From IMG/VR virus record IMGVR_UViG_3300007513_000001, positions 186,001-250,000 of that record: 64,000 bases of DNA. One strand, 5' to 3'. Of this stretch, positions 29,312 to 59,697 are shown piece after piece. Position numbers and translations under genes: made by a program. The stretch comes from a virus. Numbering within the stretch: position 1 is the first letter of the stretch; each line of letters starts with the position of its first letter. The notes under the pieces were generated by a model, which was not told the DNA's origin, did no database searches, and saw nothing but the letters and a program-made list of their open reading frames with translations.

Positions 29312-29758
29312 ATGGCAAACATAAAAAATCGCTGGAGAACGATGAGTTTAGTTTCTACGCATCTGTGTAAAACTAGCGACGTTGGATTTCATGGAAATCT
29401 TTTTGGAGGTAAGCTTTTAGCTTGGCTCGACGAAGCAGGAGCTGCTTTATCGGCTGAGTTTACAGAGACGGGAAAAATTGTTACGAAACATATTTCAGAA
29501 GTAAACTTTCAAAGCCCTGTCAGGCCAGGCCAGCTTATTAAGATTTATGGAAAGATTTTAAAAGTTGGAAAAACGTCTTTGACGATAGAAGTAGAAGCTA
29601 GGAGACACAGTATTTATAACGGAACGCAAAAACCAGTTTGTAAATGTCAGATGGTTTTTGTTAGAATCGATGGTGATGGAGAGGCTGTGCCTATCCCTCC
29701 CCATATTCACCAAAAATTCGCTCGGCCCATTGAAAGAGGAAATAAAGATGGAAAATAA
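29312..29758 (+). CDS. Hotdog-fold acyl-CoA thioesterase
   Basis: The 148-aa protein resembles YciA/BFIT-type acyl-CoA hydrolases: 'NLFGGKLLAWLDEAGA' carries the catalytic Asp/Glu helix, followed by 'TKHISEVNFQSPVRPGQLIKIYGKI' and 'KTSLTIEVEAR'. It would hydrolyse acyl-CoA to the free acid and CoA, a host-metabolism gene rarely noted in phages. It begins 1 nt after the endolysin stop and overlaps the ThyX start by 11 nt. Its place in the lysis/nucleotide stretch does not explain its job; effects on host membrane lipids are speculation. Confidence 0.85.
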   Translation: MANIKNRWRTMSLVSTHLCKTSDVGFHGNLFGGKLLAWLDEAGAALSAEFTETGKIVTKHISEVNFQSPVRPGQLIKIYGKILKVGKTSLTIEVEARRHSIYNGTQKPVCKCQMVFVRIDGDGEAVPIPPHIHQKFARPIERGNKDGK

Positions 29759-30464
29759 ATCAATAGAGCTTTATGGAGACGGCATTGGCTCTGTAGATTA
29801 TGTCGACCACATGGGTTCCGATCTTACTATTGTCAACAGCGCTCGCGTATCATTTGGCAAGCAAAAAATGACAATGGATAAAAGAGATGAAAAACTTATT
29901 AAGTACCTTATGGAACACAAGCACACCTCAACGATGGAACACAATATTGTTACGTTTCGTTTTACTGTTCCTCTTTACGTTAGGTCTCAGCATCATCGTC
30001 ATAGAACTTGGTCCTATAATGAGATCTCTCGCAGATACACGGATGTAGATATTAGATTTTATGAACCAAAATCTTTTAGAACTCAGCATGAATCAAATCG
30101 ACAAGCGTCTAATACAAAAGAATTAATCAATCCAGAGTTAAATTTGGGCGGCGGCAAATATAAGATGACAGCTGCGGAGGCATCAATCGGACTTCGAAAT
30201 ACTTCACTAGAACTTTTTAATTTATTGATTGAATCTGGTGTTTGCCGAGAACAAGCCAGAGGAATACTCCCGCAAAACATGTACACAGAATACTATGGTA
30301 CTGTCGATCTAAATAATTTGCTTAAATTTGTTGAGCTTAGAACGCATGATGGTGCTCAGTGGGAAATTCAAAAAGTCGCTGAAGCTTGTTTAGATATTGC
30401 TGAAACTCTGTGGCCAATTACTATTAATTGTTACAGAGAAACTAGGGGCAAAACTCATGAATGA
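29748..30464 (+). CDS. thyX: Flavin-dependent thymidylate synthase ThyX
   Basis: ATG 29748 is chosen because it has the SD AGAGG and gives a 238-aa protein of normal ThyX size; a longer upstream frame would run deep into the thioesterase gene. The signature RHRxxSxNExSxRY is intact at residues 84-97 ('RHRTWSYNEISRRY'), and the usual 'EHKHTSTMEHNIVTFRF' and C-terminal 'RTHDGAQWEIQKVAEACLDI' blocks are present. It converts dUMP to dTMP using FAD and methylenetetrahydrofolate. Together with the RNR, dUTPase, dCMP deaminase and thymidine kinase it gives the phage its own dTTP supply. Confidence 0.95.
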   Translation: MENKSIELYGDGIGSVDYVDHMGSDLTIVNSARVSFGKQKMTMDKRDEKLIKYLMEHKHTSTMEHNIVTFRFTVPLYVRSQHHRHRTWSYNEISRRYTDVDIRFYEPKSFRTQHESNRQASNTKELINPELNLGGGKYKMTAAEASIGLRNTSLELFNLLIESGVCREQARGILPQNMYTEYYGTVDLNNLLKFVELRTHDGAQWEIQKVAEACLDIAETLWPITINCYRETRGKTHE

Positions 30465-31492: not shown

Positions 31493-31521
31493 ATTATTTG
31501 ATTGTGTTATAATCAAATAAT
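31493..31521 (+). promoter_or_regulatory. 11-bp inverted repeat holding an extended -10 promoter
   Basis: ATTATTTGATT (31493-31503) pairs perfectly with AATCAAATAAT (31511-31521) around GTGTTAT. Inside it is TGTTATAAT (31505-31513), an exact TGnTATAAT extended -10. Transcription would begin about at the A of ATG 31520, and no SD precedes that ATG, so the mRNA may be leaderless. The palindrome is a natural repressor-binding site or a hairpin in read-through RNA. Confidence 0.55.
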
Positions 31522-35269: not shown

Positions 35270-35321
35270 TTTTTAGTTTCCTTTTATAAAATATAAATAT
35301 TAATGATAAAGTGAGATACTA
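35270..35321. promoter_or_regulatory. Divergent intergenic region with TATAAATA/ATATTTATAT box
   Basis: This 52-nt gap feeds the leftward HAD gene and the rightward 96-aa gene. TATAAATA at 35292-35299 on the + strand equals the T4 late-promoter consensus. Read on the - strand the same place gives ATATTTATAT, the ATTTAT box seen before other genes. Which strand it serves cannot be decided by eye. Confidence 0.4.
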
Positions 35322-35612
35322 ATGAATTCTTTACGTCTGTTAATTAGAGAGATTCTAAGAGAGCAAGTTGTTGGCTATACGCCGCCGTCTAAAGATGACG
35401 ATGACAATAGCGGTTATATAGAGTTTGGCGATTTGTCGGCACCTTCGAAAGAAAAAACTTCTGAAACAGAAGATCCAGAAGATCAAGAACAGCTAAGCGC
35501 GCAAGAGCAACAATTAACTCAGCAGCGCCAGCAAGACATAGACAAAAAAGACGCTAATGCTGTAAACTACGACGGAAGGGAACTACAAAGATTAAGAAAT
35601 TCAACAGGATAA
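35322..35612 (+). CDS. Small acidic protein with N-terminal helical motif
   Basis: The 96-aa protein begins 'MNSLRLLIREILREQVVGY', the clearest example of the shared N-terminal amphipathic motif. The rest is disordered and rich in Asp, Glu and Gln. Composition and the motif fit a small virion-targeted or scaffold-associated protein, by analogy with T4 internal proteins; this is inference. SD is weak. The next gene's regulatory hairpin follows directly. Confidence 0.6.
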   Translation: MNSLRLLIREILREQVVGYTPPSKDDDDNSGYIEFGDLSAPSKEKTSETEDPEDQEQLSAQEQQLTQQRQQDIDKKDANAVNYDGRELQRLRNSTG

Positions 35613-35616
35613 AGTG

Positions 35617-35663
35617 AAAAACCTCTCGTTATTTGATATAATGGATTATCAATAGAGGTTTTT
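35617..35663 (+). promoter_or_regulatory. Ribosome-site-blocking hairpin with an extended -10 promoter in its loop
   Basis: AAAAACCTCT (35617-35626) pairs perfectly with AGAGGTTTTT (35654-35663). The 3' arm holds the SD AGAGG of the DnaE gene (GTG 35666). An inner stem TTGATA/TATCAA (35633-35638, 35647-35652) is nested inside. The loop carries TGATATAAT (35634-35642), a perfect extended -10, so initiation would fall near 35649. Read-through RNA would fold and hide the SD, while RNA from the internal promoter would lack the 5' arm and be free for translation, as for T4 gene e. Confidence 0.65.
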
Positions 35664-35665
35664 AA

Positions 35666-38600
35666 GTGAAGGTTCCTAGTAAGTTTTTTGGTTTGCATTC
35701 CCATTCTGGTTTTTCTATTTTTGATGGTCTTGGATACCCCCAAGAGCATATTGACTTTTGCCGCGAAAATGGATTAGATGGTTGGTCTTTGACCGATCAT
35801 GGTCATATGAACGGTTTTGCGCATGCTTATCTCCATACAGAAAAATTAAATAAAGCTGGAGGCAACTTTAAGCTTATTCCGGGTTGTGAAATGTATGTCC
35901 ACCCAGATTTAGACGTGTGGAAGCTAGATTATGAAATAAACAAAATGGCTAAAAAAGGCGACAAAGAAGCTTTGGATATTCTAAAAAAGCAAAGAGAAGC
36001 AATTCAAACTCCGCTTTTAGCTTTTGTAGATGAACACGATGAAACTTTAGATGTCGGTTTAGAGGGTGCCTCTTTAACTGTTGAAAACGAGGAAGAAACG
36101 AAATCAGGAAAATTTTACGATCCAATCAAACGTCGACACCATTTAGTAGTTTTACCGAAAACGTCTGAAGGTCTACAAAGGTTGTTTCATTTGATTTCTA
36201 GAGGGTACACAGAAGGATTCTATAGGTTTCCAAGAGTGGACTATAAGATGCTTAAAGAGGCAGCCAAGGGAGGCCATCTAATGGTTTCGACAGCTTGTAT
36301 TGGCGGCCCTTTAGCTTATGACGTATTTCAACCACTACAAGAAACTAACTTTGAAGATCTTATTCCTTCGCTTTTTGATGACGAATCTTTGAGAAATAAA
36401 ATTCTTTCTAAGTTTGAATATTCTTATGACCAGCTCGCAGACGCTGTTGGCGAAGAAAACGTTATGCTAGAACTTCAATTCAACAAGCTTCCAGCTCAGC
36501 ACTTAGTGAATAGAGCAATATTAGAATTTGCAAGAACACGGTCTTTAACCGACCAACTTGTCGTTACTTGCGATTCTCATTATGCTTCTCCAGAGCACTG
36601 GAAAGAAAGAGAACTCTATAAAAAGTTGGGCTGGCTAAATTATAAAAGCTTTAATCCAGACAATCTTCCAAAATCTAAAGACGATCTTAAGTGTGAGCTT
36701 TATCCTAAAAATGCTCAACAGGTGTGGGAATCTTATCTTGAAACTTCTGCTGAGCATGATTTTTATAATAGCGATGAAATATTTGAAGCTATCGAAAGAA
36801 CTCACGATGTAGCTCACGAAATGATTGGCGAGATACACCCAGACCGCAAAATGAAACTTCCGTCGTATGTCGTTCCAGAAGGGGTGACAGCAAATAAAGC
36901 TCTTTTAGAAGCTTCTAAAGAGGGGCTGGTCAAGCGAGGGCTAGCAAATAAGCCAGAATATGTGGAGCGGATGAAAACCGAGCTAAAAGTTATTTTTGAT
37001 AAAAACTTTTCTGAGTATTTTCTTACAATGAAAGCAATTATTGATTTAGCTCGAGAAAAAATGCTAGCTGGCCCAGGTCGAGGCTCTGGTGCGGGATCTT
37101 TAGTAAACTATGCACTGTATATTACGGATATCGATCCTGTAGAATATGGGCTTTTGTTTGAGCGTTTTATGTCTCCAGAGCGTACTGAAATGCCAGATAT
37201 CGATACAGATATTGCGGATAGAGATGAGCTCATCAAGATTCTTAGAAGTAATTTTGGAAATAAAAACGTAATTCCAATTTCAAATTACAATACTTTTAAA
37301 ATCAAGAGTCTTCTTAAAGATGTATCTAGGTTTTACGGCATTGAGTTTTCTGAAGTAAACAAAACTTTAGCTTCATTAGAAAGAGAAGTAGCCCAAGGAA
37401 GAAAAGCTGACGGCGTAGATGCAGCTTTTGATATTAGTTTTGAAGAAGCTAAAAAGTATTCTACGAAAGTCAGAGATTATCTAGAAAAATACCCGCAAAT
37501 TGCTGATCCTATAAACGTGTTATATAAGCAAAACAAGGCTCTCGGCCGACACGCTGGTGGAGTAATTGTATCTGAAAAGATCGAAGAAAGAATGCCGTTG
37601 ATTGTTGCTAGGGGAGAAATGCAAACTCCTTGGGTAGAAGGCATGAACTATAAACATCTAGAAGAATTTGGGTGGATCAAATTTGATTTACTTGGATTGG
37701 AAACACTTAGAATTATTGAGAGGACTATTTCTCTTGTTTTAGAAAAGTCTGGAATAGAAAATCCTTCTTTCGAGCAAATTGTTGAATGGTACAATTCTCA
37801 TATTGCTCCAAATGTGATAGATTTCAACGACCAAAAAGTTTATGAAAATGTTTATCACTCTGGAAGATGGGCTGGAATTTTTCAGTGTACTCAGCGAGGA
37901 GCTCAAGCGCTTTTCAAAAGAGCTAAGCCGGTAGGGTTAGTTGATTTGGCTACTTTGACTTCTATTTACCGACCAGGTCCACTGTCTGCCAAAGTAGACA
38001 AACTTTATATTAAGGCTAAAAACAATCCAGAAAATGTTTTTTATGGTCATCCATTGATTGAACAAGTTCTTAATTCAACTTATGGAATGATTATTTTTCA
38101 AGAGCAAGTAATGGAGCTTTGCCACGTGGTTGCTGGATTCCCTAAAGCTGAATGTAACAAACTTAGAAAAATGATGAAGCCAGTTGGTTCTGGTAATGAA
38201 AACATAAAGAAAGCTGCCGCCCTTAAGAATAAGTTTGTAGAAGGCGCATCAAAAAATGGTGTAGAGAAAAATATTGCTAGCGAGCTTTATGATAGGATTC
38301 TGTATTTCTCTGGGTACGGATTTAATAAGTCTCACGCGGTTTCTTATGCTGTGAACTCATATCATTGTGCATGGTTCATGACCTATTTTGAACAAGAGTG
38401 GATTCAAGCTTACTTAGAAGCATGTTCAGGAAATCCTAAAAAGCTTTCAAAGGCTTTAAGCGAAGTAAAGGCGCTTGGCTATAAAATAGTCCCAATTGAC
38501 ATTAATAAAGCTGGTAAAGCTTGGACTTGCATAGACGATAATTCTTTGATGCCCTCATTTTTGTCTTGCAAAGGTGTGGGCGCAGCAGCGGTTGAAGAAA

Positions 38601-39265
38601 TTTTGGAAAAACGCCCTTACAAATCGCTTGAAGATATGTTTTGGAGTGAAGATGGAACTTGGAAGCATGCTAAATTCAACAAGAGAGCTATAGAGTCCTT
38701 GATAAAAATTAGAGCTTTTGACTCCCTAGAGTGCGTCGGCCCAGACAAAGATTTTAAGAGTTATGCGCATATGCACTCTGTTGTTATAGAAAACTTTAAC
38801 GAGCTTAGAAAACGTACTAAGAAAGATCCTTATCGTGGAAAAAATAATTTCTTTAAAATTCTTGTAGAGAGCTCTGAAATTTCTGAGTGGTCTTTCGACG
38901 CAATGATGAATTTTGAACAAGAGCTTTTGGGAACCATTAATGTAGAAGCTCTTTTACCAGAAAAATTTGTAAAAAGAATGAATGACAAAAATATTCTTTC
39001 TTTAGATGAACATTGTGGTAGAGAGTTTTACTGGTTTGTTTTAACAAAAGCAATCCCCAAACTCACAAAAAACAAGAAGCCGTACTTACTCTTGAACGGC
39101 ATAGCTTCAACAGGAAAATCTCATAGAATGTTTTGCTGGGGAGTGCCCAAAGATGCTGATTTAGATCCTTTTACTTTTTGCATCGCAGAAGTAGATAAAA
39201 ATGATTTCGGAATGTCTACGAAGTGGAACAGGATCAAAAAATTTAGCTTTAATGATCTTTCTTAA
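35666..39265 (+). CDS. dnaE: DNA polymerase III alpha subunit (DnaE-type, family C replicase)
   Basis: The 1199-aa protein has the normal DnaE length. It begins with a PHP domain ('FFGLHSHSGFSIFDG', residues 8-21; 'SLTDHGHMNG' follows). It then has the polymerase motif 'GPGRGSGAGSLV' (about 468-479) and the catalytic 'PDIDTDIADRD' with Asp511 and Asp513. The fingers region includes 'GRHAGGVIVSEK', 'WIKFDLLGLETL', 'SIYRPGPL' and 'GYGFNKSHAVSYA'. The C-terminus is shorter in recognisable tau/beta-binding features, so the clamp contact is uncertain. GTG 35666 is supported by the SD AGAGG. This should be the main replicase, unusual in a phage with T4-like helicase and SSB. Confidence 0.95.
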   Translation: MKVPSKFFGLHSHSGFSIFDGLGYPQEHIDFCRENGLDGWSLTDHGHMNGFAHAYLHTEKLNKAGGNFKLIPGCEMYVHPDLDVWKLDYEINKMAKKGDKEALDILKKQREAIQTPLLAFVDEHDETLDVGLEGASLTVENEEETKSGKFYDPIKRRHHLVVLPKTSEGLQRLFHLISRGYTEGFYRFPRVDYKMLKEAAKGGHLMVSTACIGGPLAYDVFQPLQETNFEDLIPSLFDDESLRNKILSKFEYSYDQLADAVGEENVMLELQFNKLPAQHLVNRAILEFARTRSLTDQLVVTCDSHYASPEHWKERELYKKLGWLNYKSFNPDNLPKSKDDLKCELYPKNAQQVWESYLETSAEHDFYNSDEIFEAIERTHDVAHEMIGEIHPDRKMKLPSYVVPEGVTANKALLEASKEGLVKRGLANKPEYVERMKTELKVIFDKNFSEYFLTMKAIIDLAREKMLAGPGRGSGAGSLVNYALYITDIDPVEYGLLFERFMSPERTEMPDIDTDIADRDELIKILRSNFGNKNVIPISNYNTFKIKSLLKDVSRFYGIEFSEVNKTLASLEREVAQGRKADGVDAAFDISFEEAKKYSTKVRDYLEKYPQIADPINVLYKQNKALGRHAGGVIVSEKIEERMPLIVARGEMQTPWVEGMNYKHLEEFGWIKFDLLGLETLRIIERTISLVLEKSGIENPSFEQIVEWYNSHIAPNVIDFNDQKVYENVYHSGRWAGIFQCTQRGAQALFKRAKPVGLVDLATLTSIYRPGPLSAKVDKLYIKAKNNPENVFYGHPLIEQVLNSTYGMIIFQEQVMELCHVVAGFPKAECNKLRKMMKPVGSGNENIKKAAALKNKFVEGASKNGVEKNIASELYDRILYFSGYGFNKSHAVSYAVNSYHCAWFMTYFEQEWIQAYLEACSGNPKKLSKALSEVKALGYKIVPIDINKAGKAWTCIDDNSLMPSFLSCKGVGAAAVEEILEKRPYKSLEDMFWSEDGTWKHAKFNKRAIESLIKIRAFDSLECVGPDKDFKSYAHMHSVVIENFNELRKRTKKDPYRGKNNFFKILVESSEISEWSFDAMMNFEQELLGTINVEALLPEKFVKRMNDKNILSLDEHCGREFYWFVLTKAIPKLTKNKKPYLLLNGIASTGKSHRMFCWGVPKDADLDPFTFCIAEVDKNDFGMSTKWNRIKKFSFNDLS

Positions 39266-39300: not shown

Positions 39301-40146
39301 ATGGTTGAAAACTATATAAATTTAAATCAAGCGTTTGTTGAAGAATTAGTAGACCTCAAATTTAACGGTGAAGAAGTTAAGTCGAGAGGATTCACGCAAA
39401 AAGAAAAATTGTTTTGCTCTTTCATTATAAAAGATCCAACAGATCTAAAGATCAAAGTGCCCGCCCGCAAGTTTAATGAAGATTACGCTGTTTTAGAGTG
39501 GCTTTGGTATCTTACTTCCAATTGCGAAGTAAGCAATATTGGGAAGTTTGCTGATATATGGAATAAAATAGCTGATGAAGATAATTTAGTTGAATCAAAT
39601 TATGGAAGTTATATAAAGCCTGCTTGGTATGATTTAGTAAACGAGCTTCTTAACGATAGAGATACAAGAAGAGCTACTTGCGTAATTAACCAACCTCACC
39701 ATCGATGGAAAAATCCTAACGACTACCCCTGCACTCATTATATTCATTTTTTTATTAGAGGAGATGCTCTTCACTTGGGAGTTTACATGAGATCTAACGA
39801 TGCAGTTTTTGGTTTTTGCAATGACGTTTTTACTTTTGCGTTGTTTCAACAGCTTATGTTAAACGAACTAAATTCTCGTGGTGCTAATTTAAAGCTAGGC
39901 AATTATTACCATTCAGCTGGAAGCTTTCATGTTTATGATCGACATTACGAAATGCTAGAAAAAATCTCAAAAAACTACTTTAAGAAAGCTAGAAAAGAAG
40001 GGTATCCCACATTTGAAAAAATGACTTTAAATCCAGATTTAACTTGGCCAAAAATGGAAAAATTTATATCTTTTTTTGAAGAAAACCTAGACAAAGACGA
40101 AATATCGAGTAAGATTAAAGAGATTAGGGAGATTATCTTTCAATGA
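39301..40146 (+). CDS. Thymidylate synthase-family protein with Asp specificity residue; probable deoxypyrimidine hydroxymethylase
   Basis: The 281-aa protein has the ThyA fold pattern: Glu66 in 'LEWLWYL', catalytic Cys144 in 'DYPCTHYIHFF', 'RSNDAVFGFCNDVF' (Arg164-Phe177), and 'SFHVYDRH' with His210. In a gapless alignment with E. coli ThyA 'RSCDVFLGLPFN', the specificity Asn177 falls on Asp175. Asn-to-Asp at this position marks enzymes that act on dCMP, such as T4 dCMP hydroxymethylase. Because the phage also has ThyX, this enzyme probably makes 5-hydroxymethyl-dCMP or a related base, not dTMP. It opens the nucleotide/base-modification block. Confidence 0.82.
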   Translation: MVENYINLNQAFVEELVDLKFNGEEVKSRGFTQKEKLFCSFIIKDPTDLKIKVPARKFNEDYAVLEWLWYLTSNCEVSNIGKFADIWNKIADEDNLVESNYGSYIKPAWYDLVNELLNDRDTRRATCVINQPHHRWKNPNDYPCTHYIHFFIRGDALHLGVYMRSNDAVFGFCNDVFTFALFQQLMLNELNSRGANLKLGNYYHSAGSFHVYDRHYEMLEKISKNYFKKARKEGYPTFEKMTLNPDLTWPKMEKFISFFEENLDKDEISSKIKEIREIIFQ

Positions 40147-41900: not shown

Positions 41901-41914
41901 AAATGGAGAAAAAT

Positions 41915-43105
41915 ATGCCAAAAAATAAATCAATTCGAGTTGCAATTGTCGGTGTCGGAAATTGCGCTAATTCTTTCTATCAAGGATTAACATATTATGC
42001 TGGATACACCGAAGGCCAAGAGCGCGACGGCGTTATGAAGAGCCGAATCGGAGGATATTCAGTAGCTGACCTCGATGTTGTAGCTGCGTTTGATATAGAC
42101 AAAAGAAAAGTCGGCAAGTGTTTTAGAGAAGCTATGTGGGCTAAACCAAACTGTACTCCAGAATATGAACCTAATGTTCCCGATGGTCCAATAGTTCAGA
42201 TGGGCCCAGTGTTAGATGGGGTACCGTCTTTGATGAAATCTTATCCAGACGATGAAGCTTTTAGACCAGCTGATTTAGAGCCCGTAGATGTGGCTCAGAT
42301 ATTAACAGACTTAAAGGTGGATATTCTAATCAACTATCTACCAGTGGGTTCTCAGAAGGCTACTGAGTGGTATGCAGAACAGTGTCTAAAGACGGGAGTT
42401 TCTCTTCTTAACTGTATTCCAGTCTTTATTGCTTCTAATCCAATTTGGGAACAGAAGTTTATTGATGCTGGAATTCCTTTGGTTGGGGACGATATGAAAT
42501 CTCAGTTTGGGGCGTCTATTTTATCTCAAATGCTGCAAGAATTAGCTTTCGCCCGAGGACTAAATGTGAATGCTCATATTCAGCGTAATGTTGGTGGAAA
42601 TACTGATTTCTTGAATATGGTCGATCAATCTAGGTTAAAGTATAAAAAGGTTTCTAAGGAAAATGTAATTCGATCTCAGCATGTTATCAGGGGAGTTGAT
42701 CCAGAAGAATCATTCTTACATGCTGGCCCTTCAGAATATATTCGTTTTTATGGAGATAACAAGGTTGCCAATTTTAGAGTAGAGATGGAAGGTTTCCTCG
42801 GCGCACCAGTAATTCTAGACGCGCAACTTTCCGTAATCGACTCTCCAAACTCTGGTGGAGTTGTTATCGACGCGGCTCGATATCTAAAGGTTGCGAGAGA
42901 AATGGGGATTGTTGGAGCTTTGCGTGGGCCATCTGCCTTTACGCAAAAAACCCCGCCCCAACAATTAATGTTTTCAGAAACTCTTTACGAATGCGACGCT
43001 CTTTCAGAGAGAAAGCTTACTAGATTTACAAAGAGGCAAACTCAAAATTACAGTGCGGAAGAGTTGTATCAATCTTGCCCAGCAGGAAACAAGGAAGTAG
43101 ATTAA
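41915..43105 (+). CDS. Inositol-3-phosphate synthase (prokaryote type)
   Basis: ATG 41915 is preferred because GGAG lies 6 nt upstream; the earlier ATG 41903 contains that SD. The 396-aa protein has an N-terminal Rossmann motif 'VAIVGVGNCANS', then 'AAFDIDKRKVGK', 'NYLPVGSQKATEWYAEQC', 'PLVGDDMKSQFGAS' and 'QRNVGGNTDFLNM', all typical of actinobacterial/archaeal Ino1 enzymes. It should convert glucose 6-phosphate to L-myo-inositol 1-phosphate using NAD. This is a very unusual phage gene. With the epimerase, cupin and FkbM genes nearby it may feed a sugar or cyclitol decoration. Confidence 0.9.
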   Translation: MPKNKSIRVAIVGVGNCANSFYQGLTYYAGYTEGQERDGVMKSRIGGYSVADLDVVAAFDIDKRKVGKCFREAMWAKPNCTPEYEPNVPDGPIVQMGPVLDGVPSLMKSYPDDEAFRPADLEPVDVAQILTDLKVDILINYLPVGSQKATEWYAEQCLKTGVSLLNCIPVFIASNPIWEQKFIDAGIPLVGDDMKSQFGASILSQMLQELAFARGLNVNAHIQRNVGGNTDFLNMVDQSRLKYKKVSKENVIRSQHVIRGVDPEESFLHAGPSEYIRFYGDNKVANFRVEMEGFLGAPVILDAQLSVIDSPNSGGVVIDAARYLKVAREMGIVGALRGPSAFTQKTPPQQLMFSETLYECDALSERKLTRFTKRQTQNYSAEELYQSCPAGNKEVD

Positions 43106-59688: not shown

Positions 59689-59697
59689 TGGTATAAT
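59689..59697 (+). promoter_or_regulatory. Extended -10 promoter before the ligase-like gene
   Basis: TGGTATAAT is an exact TGnTATAAT. Initiation near 59704 gives a short leader with the SD AAGGAG (59709-59714) and ATG 59723. There is no clear -35, which extended -10 promoters often lack. Confidence 0.6.

Follow-up and report, generated by a model that had tools for sequence, protein, structure and literature searches.

A promoter nested in an RNA hairpin appears to make translation of a phage replicase gene depend on where its message begins. This hairpin lies directly upstream of a dnaE-type gene for DNA polymerase III alpha and probably works as a genuine device against synthesis of the polymerase from read-through RNA. 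Transcript-origin-dependent translation of dnaE is our best reading of the locus, and we hold it with moderate confidence. The main evidence for the predicted hairpin is comparative and does not come from a single fold. The locus is part of a 64-kb window, by which we mean the whole stretch of DNA under analysis (positions 186001–250000 of a virus record with 293,409 bases in total). The source is an uncultivated giant phage of a lineage without close cultured relatives. Its DnaE finds only distant matches among cultured phages (best approximately 30% identity), and a search of cellular genomes for a relative found none. Since 309 of the 339 called genes in the genome share one strand, read-through RNA is plausible. 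A tRNA search of the 64-kb window returned none, and an Rfam search of the window gave no family above gathering score.

The dnaE gene (35666–39265, + strand) encodes 1199 residues from a GTG start, matches phrog_405 (5.7e-230) and contains PHP, DNA_pol3_alpha, finger and HHH domains. Ahead of the start codon, AAAAACCTCT (35617–35626, + strand) pairs with AGAGGTTTTT (35654–35663, + strand) in a perfect 10-bp stem that closes a loop of 27 nt. The first five bases of the 3′ arm, AGAGG (35654–35658), are the Shine–Dalgarno sequence (SD) of dnaE and stand 7 nt before the GTG at 35666. The loop contains the extended −10 element TGATATAAT (35634–35642, + strand), the sole exact copy in the window. 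A sequence-only reading of this DNA had called both a perfect 10-bp stem with the replicase SD in its 3′ arm and an exact extended −10 in the loop; we could confirm the two features, including the coordinates and the identity of the SD. Overlooked at that time were a −35 element, an inner stem of 6 bp and the stop codon of an upstream open reading frame (ORF) only 4 nt from the stem. The −35 element GTGAAA (35614–35619, + strand) is separated from the −10 by a 17-nt spacer, and the resulting promoter agrees with sigma-70 at 10 of 12 positions, plus the TG. The 5′ arm of the hairpin, which acts as the putative anti-SD, overlaps the −35 element and the spacer and ends 7 nt 5′ of TGATATAAT. According to the predicted fold, the inner stem is formed by TTGATA (35633–35638, + strand), which is part of the −10, and TATCAA (35647–35652, + strand), and together the two stems reach an energy of −13.3 kcal/mol. 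The upstream ORF (35322–35612, + strand, stop codon 35610–35612) codes for 96 residues and is co-directional with dnaE; the closest relatives, L102 and L099, carry co-directional ORFs of 98 and 120 residues at the same place.

From the position of the −10 alone, transcription is predicted to start approximately 7 nt after this element, at about 35649 (35648–35651, + strand). With this start, the RNA made from the promoter itself would begin downstream of the 5′ arm and would be without it. In the longer RNA, AGAGG falls wholly within the 3′ arm and is predicted to be held in a helix. Model energies for opening the SD are 8.9 kcal/mol in the read-through RNA versus 3.1 kcal/mol in RNA starting at 35648–35650. 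Hence the spacer of the dnaE promoter may double as an anti-SD arm: read-through RNA with both arms would fold, hide the SD and yield little polymerase, while RNA starting near 35649 would leave the SD more open and would be translated. DnaE synthesis would then be tied to its own promoter, and the gene would be insulated from co-directional transcription arriving from upstream. We infer three steps of this scheme, namely the use of the promoter, the presence of read-through RNA and the difference in translation. Against it speaks that some structure, worth approximately 3 kcal/mol, still covers the SD in the short RNA.

To examine this arrangement in other phages, we drew on two scans of viral contigs, which provided two overlapping sets of 33 and 79 loci for relatives with 47–100% identity, and on a comparative set of approximately 50 divergent relatives with 47–93% identical dnaE. 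Most relatives show the order TGNAAA, 16–18 nt, a TATAAT-like element, a short leader and the dnaE start, and this promoter is retained in most of them down to approximately 50% protein identity. The sequences of spacer and leader are unconserved, yet in many relatives they are mutually paired. The arms are TCCTGTCT/AGACAGGA in L054, AAAGCTCTTGTT/AACAGGAGCTTT with one GU pair in L061, TCCTGGGTC/GACCCAGGA in L032, TCCAGATT/AATCTGGA in L051, TTTGTCTAAC/GTTAGACAAA in L104 and AAAACCTC/GAGGTTTT in L056, and in L080 spacer and leader pair across a longer loop. The predicted start follows the 5′ arm in these loci. That pairing and not sequence is kept is seen most cleanly in the comparison of the window with L102 (93% identity) and L099 (91%), in which GTGAAAA and TGATATAAT are invariant while the stem arms are altered and still pair. 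The inner pairing also occurs in both of these phages, and the folds over the SD have z-scores of −2.9 (window), −4.6 (L102) and −6.3 (L099). Single-locus folds of L054, L061, L056 and L051 were left out because the available pieces are too short on the 5′ side.

A clear hairpin is present in roughly a third of the relatives, and about half show no clear hairpin. In L043 and L044 the −10 is spanned by a hairpin with T6–T7 behind it, and the SD is left outside; L068 and L073 have a terminator-like stem whose loop contains the −35 and whose T tract contains the −10. Their sequence features suggest terminators in the position that the SD hairpin occupies elsewhere. Either solution, an SD hairpin or a terminator, would keep upstream RNA from making DnaE. 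The sequence-only reading had suggested that conservation of the stem and the −10 be checked in relatives, and the comparison bears it out: relatives retain the promoter, and between spacer and SD they repeatedly form stems of unlike sequence, far beyond the level of swapped partners. Its larger claim, a switch governed by the origin of the transcript, fared well in the retention of promoter and stem and in the position of the 5′ arm upstream of the predicted start; it fared less well in that the hairpin is clear in only about a third of loci and is replaced by a terminator-like element in two relatives.

The swap test behind this comparison used the sequence that begins shortly ahead of the −35 and ends at the −10, and measured the duplex that it forms with the leader after the −10, using either a locus's own stretch or those of other loci. 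Over 50 loci the mean duplex energy was −9.07 kcal/mol with the own stretch versus −6.76 ± 0.33 kcal/mol after permutation (z = −7.1, 0 of 50,000 permutations). The z-score was identical (−7.1) for a dereplicated set of 44 loci, an earlier version of the test on 43 loci gave −5.6, and values with and without GU pairs, compared to tell RNA from DNA pairing, were similar (−6.4 and −6.1). The own upstream stretch also raises the cost of opening the SD more than swapped stretches do (4.6 versus 3.0 kcal/mol, model energies for 50 loci, Wilcoxon P = 0.002). Relative to dinucleotide shuffles, dnaE leaders are more strongly paired than those of 436 other genes from these loci (Mann–Whitney P = 4e-5), and pairing is individually significant for 20% of dnaE leaders versus 6.7% of other genes when one fixed geometry is applied. 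Because the fixed-geometry test misplaces some loci, we prefer the test anchored on the −10. About one locus in three contributes the pairing signal, and many others show nothing. These data show a selection-like retention of pairing while the sequence of the arms turns over.

For the window itself, we asked how often such a hairpin would arise by chance. The arrangement AACCTCT..AGAGGTT is expected 0.01 times per window, a figure for a pattern that was picked post hoc. The 293-kb genome contains only 23 perfect repeats of at least 10 bp with loops of 6–34 nt, and a −10 would fall into the loop of such a repeat at 0.15% of positions. Across the whole genome, 2 of the 17 strict promoters of the dnaE type are located in such loops (P = 0.0003). 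These two, the dnaE promoter and one at window position 31508, are also the sole ones of the 17 that map between 45 and 245 kb. The second looped promoter (31493–31521, + strand) consists of an 11-bp stem ATTATTTGATT/AATCAAATAAT around TGTTATAAT (31505–31513), and its 3′ arm extends as far as the start codon (ATG, 31520) of a sulfotransferase-like gene. Folding energy on its own is not unusual for a 71-nt piece (z = −1.5) and is lower for a tight 58-nt piece (z = −2.9). The result for the longer piece and the absence of the hairpin from many relatives are what one would expect of a functionless AU-rich inverted repeat beside a genuine promoter. We regard this explanation as very improbable, since dnaE exceeds other genes, the tests of own-partner pairing and SD opening are significant, the closest three phages keep pairing with altered arms, and two of 17 promoters sit in repeat loops.

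The gene upstream of the promoter provides a further comparison. Where a co-directional gene ends near the promoter, the mean pairing z-score is −1.2 (36 loci), versus approximately +0.2 for overlap of the upstream gene with the promoter (4 loci) and approximately +0.1 for a divergent upstream gene (4 loci). This difference in context has P = 0.011, or 0.006 for the first class against all others, with classes assigned by hand once the sequences were known and with only four loci each for the overlapping and divergent cases. Two of these eight loci, L046 and L063, are exceptions that pair despite an overlapping or divergent upstream gene. The weaker hairpins at divergent and overlapping loci fit a role of the predicted pairing in insulation from read-through.

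Three other functions of the hairpin deserve consideration. In the window itself, translational coupling is the chief rival, because only 4 nt separate the upstream stop codon from the stem: ribosomes finishing the 96-residue ORF would melt the 5′ arm and free the dnaE SD, DnaE output would follow the upstream gene, and the promoter would be an extra source of message. The window stop does fall inside the footprint of a terminating ribosome, near enough for that ribosome to melt the 5′ arm, which counts against transcript-origin-dependent translation, and the upstream gene ends at about the −35 also in L102, L099 and L054. However, in L061, L056, L032, L104 and L044 the stop precedes the −35 by 12–27 nt, so that the stem lies mostly past the footprint, yet these loci are paired. 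On balance we consider coupling unlikely, though it is the strongest of the alternatives.

An intrinsic terminator or attenuator, which would stop upstream transcription at the promoter instead of hiding the SD, is somewhat less probable still. The forms with T6–T7 and an exposed SD in L043 and L044, the terminator-like stems of L068 and L073, and the TTTTT at the end of the window stem would suit this function. The window stem has only three GC pairs and a loop of 27 nt, its T run takes part in pairing, and a terminator scan did not call it; L102 and L099 are without such a T run, and the SD is paired in both. We find it similarly hard to credit, and slightly harder, that the dyad around the −10 is a DNA operator for a dimeric repressor or activator. 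Its center is near the −10, and an inner dyad TATGGTA/TACTATA is common to other promoters of the genome, but the outer arms have no common sequence across clades or among the promoters of one genome, the spacing of the arms is variable, and wobble pairs and bulges occur in L061, L102 and L031. Transcript-origin-dependent translation of dnaE is the explanation that we retain as the best reading.

We then turned to the question as to whether other promoters follow the same design. A promoter family TTCTGTAAAAA..TATGGTATAATAnTACTATAA in the genome of the window (G000) occurs mostly at 7–45 kb and 245–280 kb. The strong family of the form TTCTGTAAAAA-N-TATGGTATAATAnTACTATAAgg, which includes the promoter at window position 59692 (G000 245692), is marked by an inner dyad, conserved around the −10; its members are all on the + strand and are likely the early promoters of the phage. 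A search for a second promoter class by upstream k-mer enrichment recovered only the TTCTGTAAAAA..TGGTATAATA family. Spacer and SD can pair at G000 42536 (TCCACC/GGTGGA), 280411, 24901 and 245692, and at G000 252660 a GTG start is hidden by CACTAAAT/ATTTAGTG; the apparent counterpart of the latter in G001 (215428) has different arms, TCCTCTT/AAGAGGA. G000 264333–264361 reads TCCTTTTTTT-ttataattt-AAAAAAAGGA, a stem of 10 bp whose loop contains TATAAT and whose 3′ arm contains the SD, and here too the arms differ in the apparent G001 counterpart (226847). When all promoters were subjected to the own-versus-swapped test, two of five genomes were significant, G004 (P < 0.0002) and G010 (P = 0.008), and G000, G001 and G003 showed no significance in this test. 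With significance in only G004 and G010, a genome-wide rule is a lead and not a result. This rule would state that promoters in long co-directional blocks generally carry an anti-SD in their spacer, such that the replicative polymerase and other products are made only from their own promoters, with arms re-invented in each clade and sometimes a terminator instead; we consider it possible but doubtful. If true, the timing known from T4 would be reversed, in that a replication gene would be silenced in other RNA. G003 has a different promoter family, CGTGCAAA..TGTGGTATAATAnnnATGTTGGTGGGG (L150–L163, e.g., at 814, 1582, 212800 and 235964), the leaders of which look foldable (TTGGTC..GACCAA; GGTGGGG..CCCCAC) and perhaps stabilize mRNA 5′ ends.

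Among the genes near dnaE, window positions 29658–30464 and 39301–40146 both match thymidylate synthase profiles (phrog_85 and phrog_160), possibly representing a ThyX-type and a ThyA-type enzyme in one genome. Positions 41903–43105 hold a phage gene with a myo-inositol-1-phosphate synthase domain.

The proposed device has precedents. In the transposase genes of IS10 and IS50, read-through RNA folds over the ribosome binding site (RBS) and RNA from the transposase promoter does not; there the arms come from the terminal region of the element, whereas the putative phage anti-SD is encoded in the spacer of a promoter that serves an ordinary gene. The T4 genes e, soc, 49 and I-TevI are established cases of hidden RBSs, with an effect of about 100-fold for e (PMC3014915), and further such hairpins precede I-TevII, I-TevIII, segB and Aeh1 mobE (PMC2988022). 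The dnaE locus resembles e, soc and 49 in that the predicted helix over SD or start codon needs the longer upstream RNA and the RNA of the promoter itself would be without the 5′ strand (PMC3014915), and it resembles the I-TevI, I-TevII, I-TevIII, segB and mobE loci in that a promoter lies in or beside a hairpin that would hide the RBS, plausibly within a longer transcription unit (PMC2988022). According to a review, every known case is a late gene carried on an early or middle message (PMC2988022). In e, soc and 49, late TATAAATA promoters that overlap the structure shield late genes from early RNA (PMC2988022), and the second group consists of homing endonucleases, the promoters of which are middle or late. 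In contrast, the promoter described here is of the −35/−10 type (GTGAAA-N17-TATAAT) and serves a replicative DNA polymerase. We also considered T4-like late promoters as the source of read-through and rejected them: the genome contains 16 copies of TATAAATA, two of these with an RBS, and the motif is not enriched. One copy at window 35292–35299, with a distance of 30 nt to the start codon (ATG) of the upstream 96-residue ORF, may be due to chance. The analogy to T4 drawn in the sequence-only reading accordingly holds for the logic of the switch, and breaks down for the host-sigma-like promoter, the replicase gene and the unenriched TATAAATA. In our best reading, the device would work like those of T4 e and I-TevI, and new would be the host-sigma-like promoter, the replication gene and the fast turnover of the arms. 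The dnaE hairpin provides a unit of approximately 50 bp for tests and a sequence rule to find others. If the proposed reading is true, insulation encoded in promoter spacers would be a wider answer to read-through in phages that are nearly one-directional.
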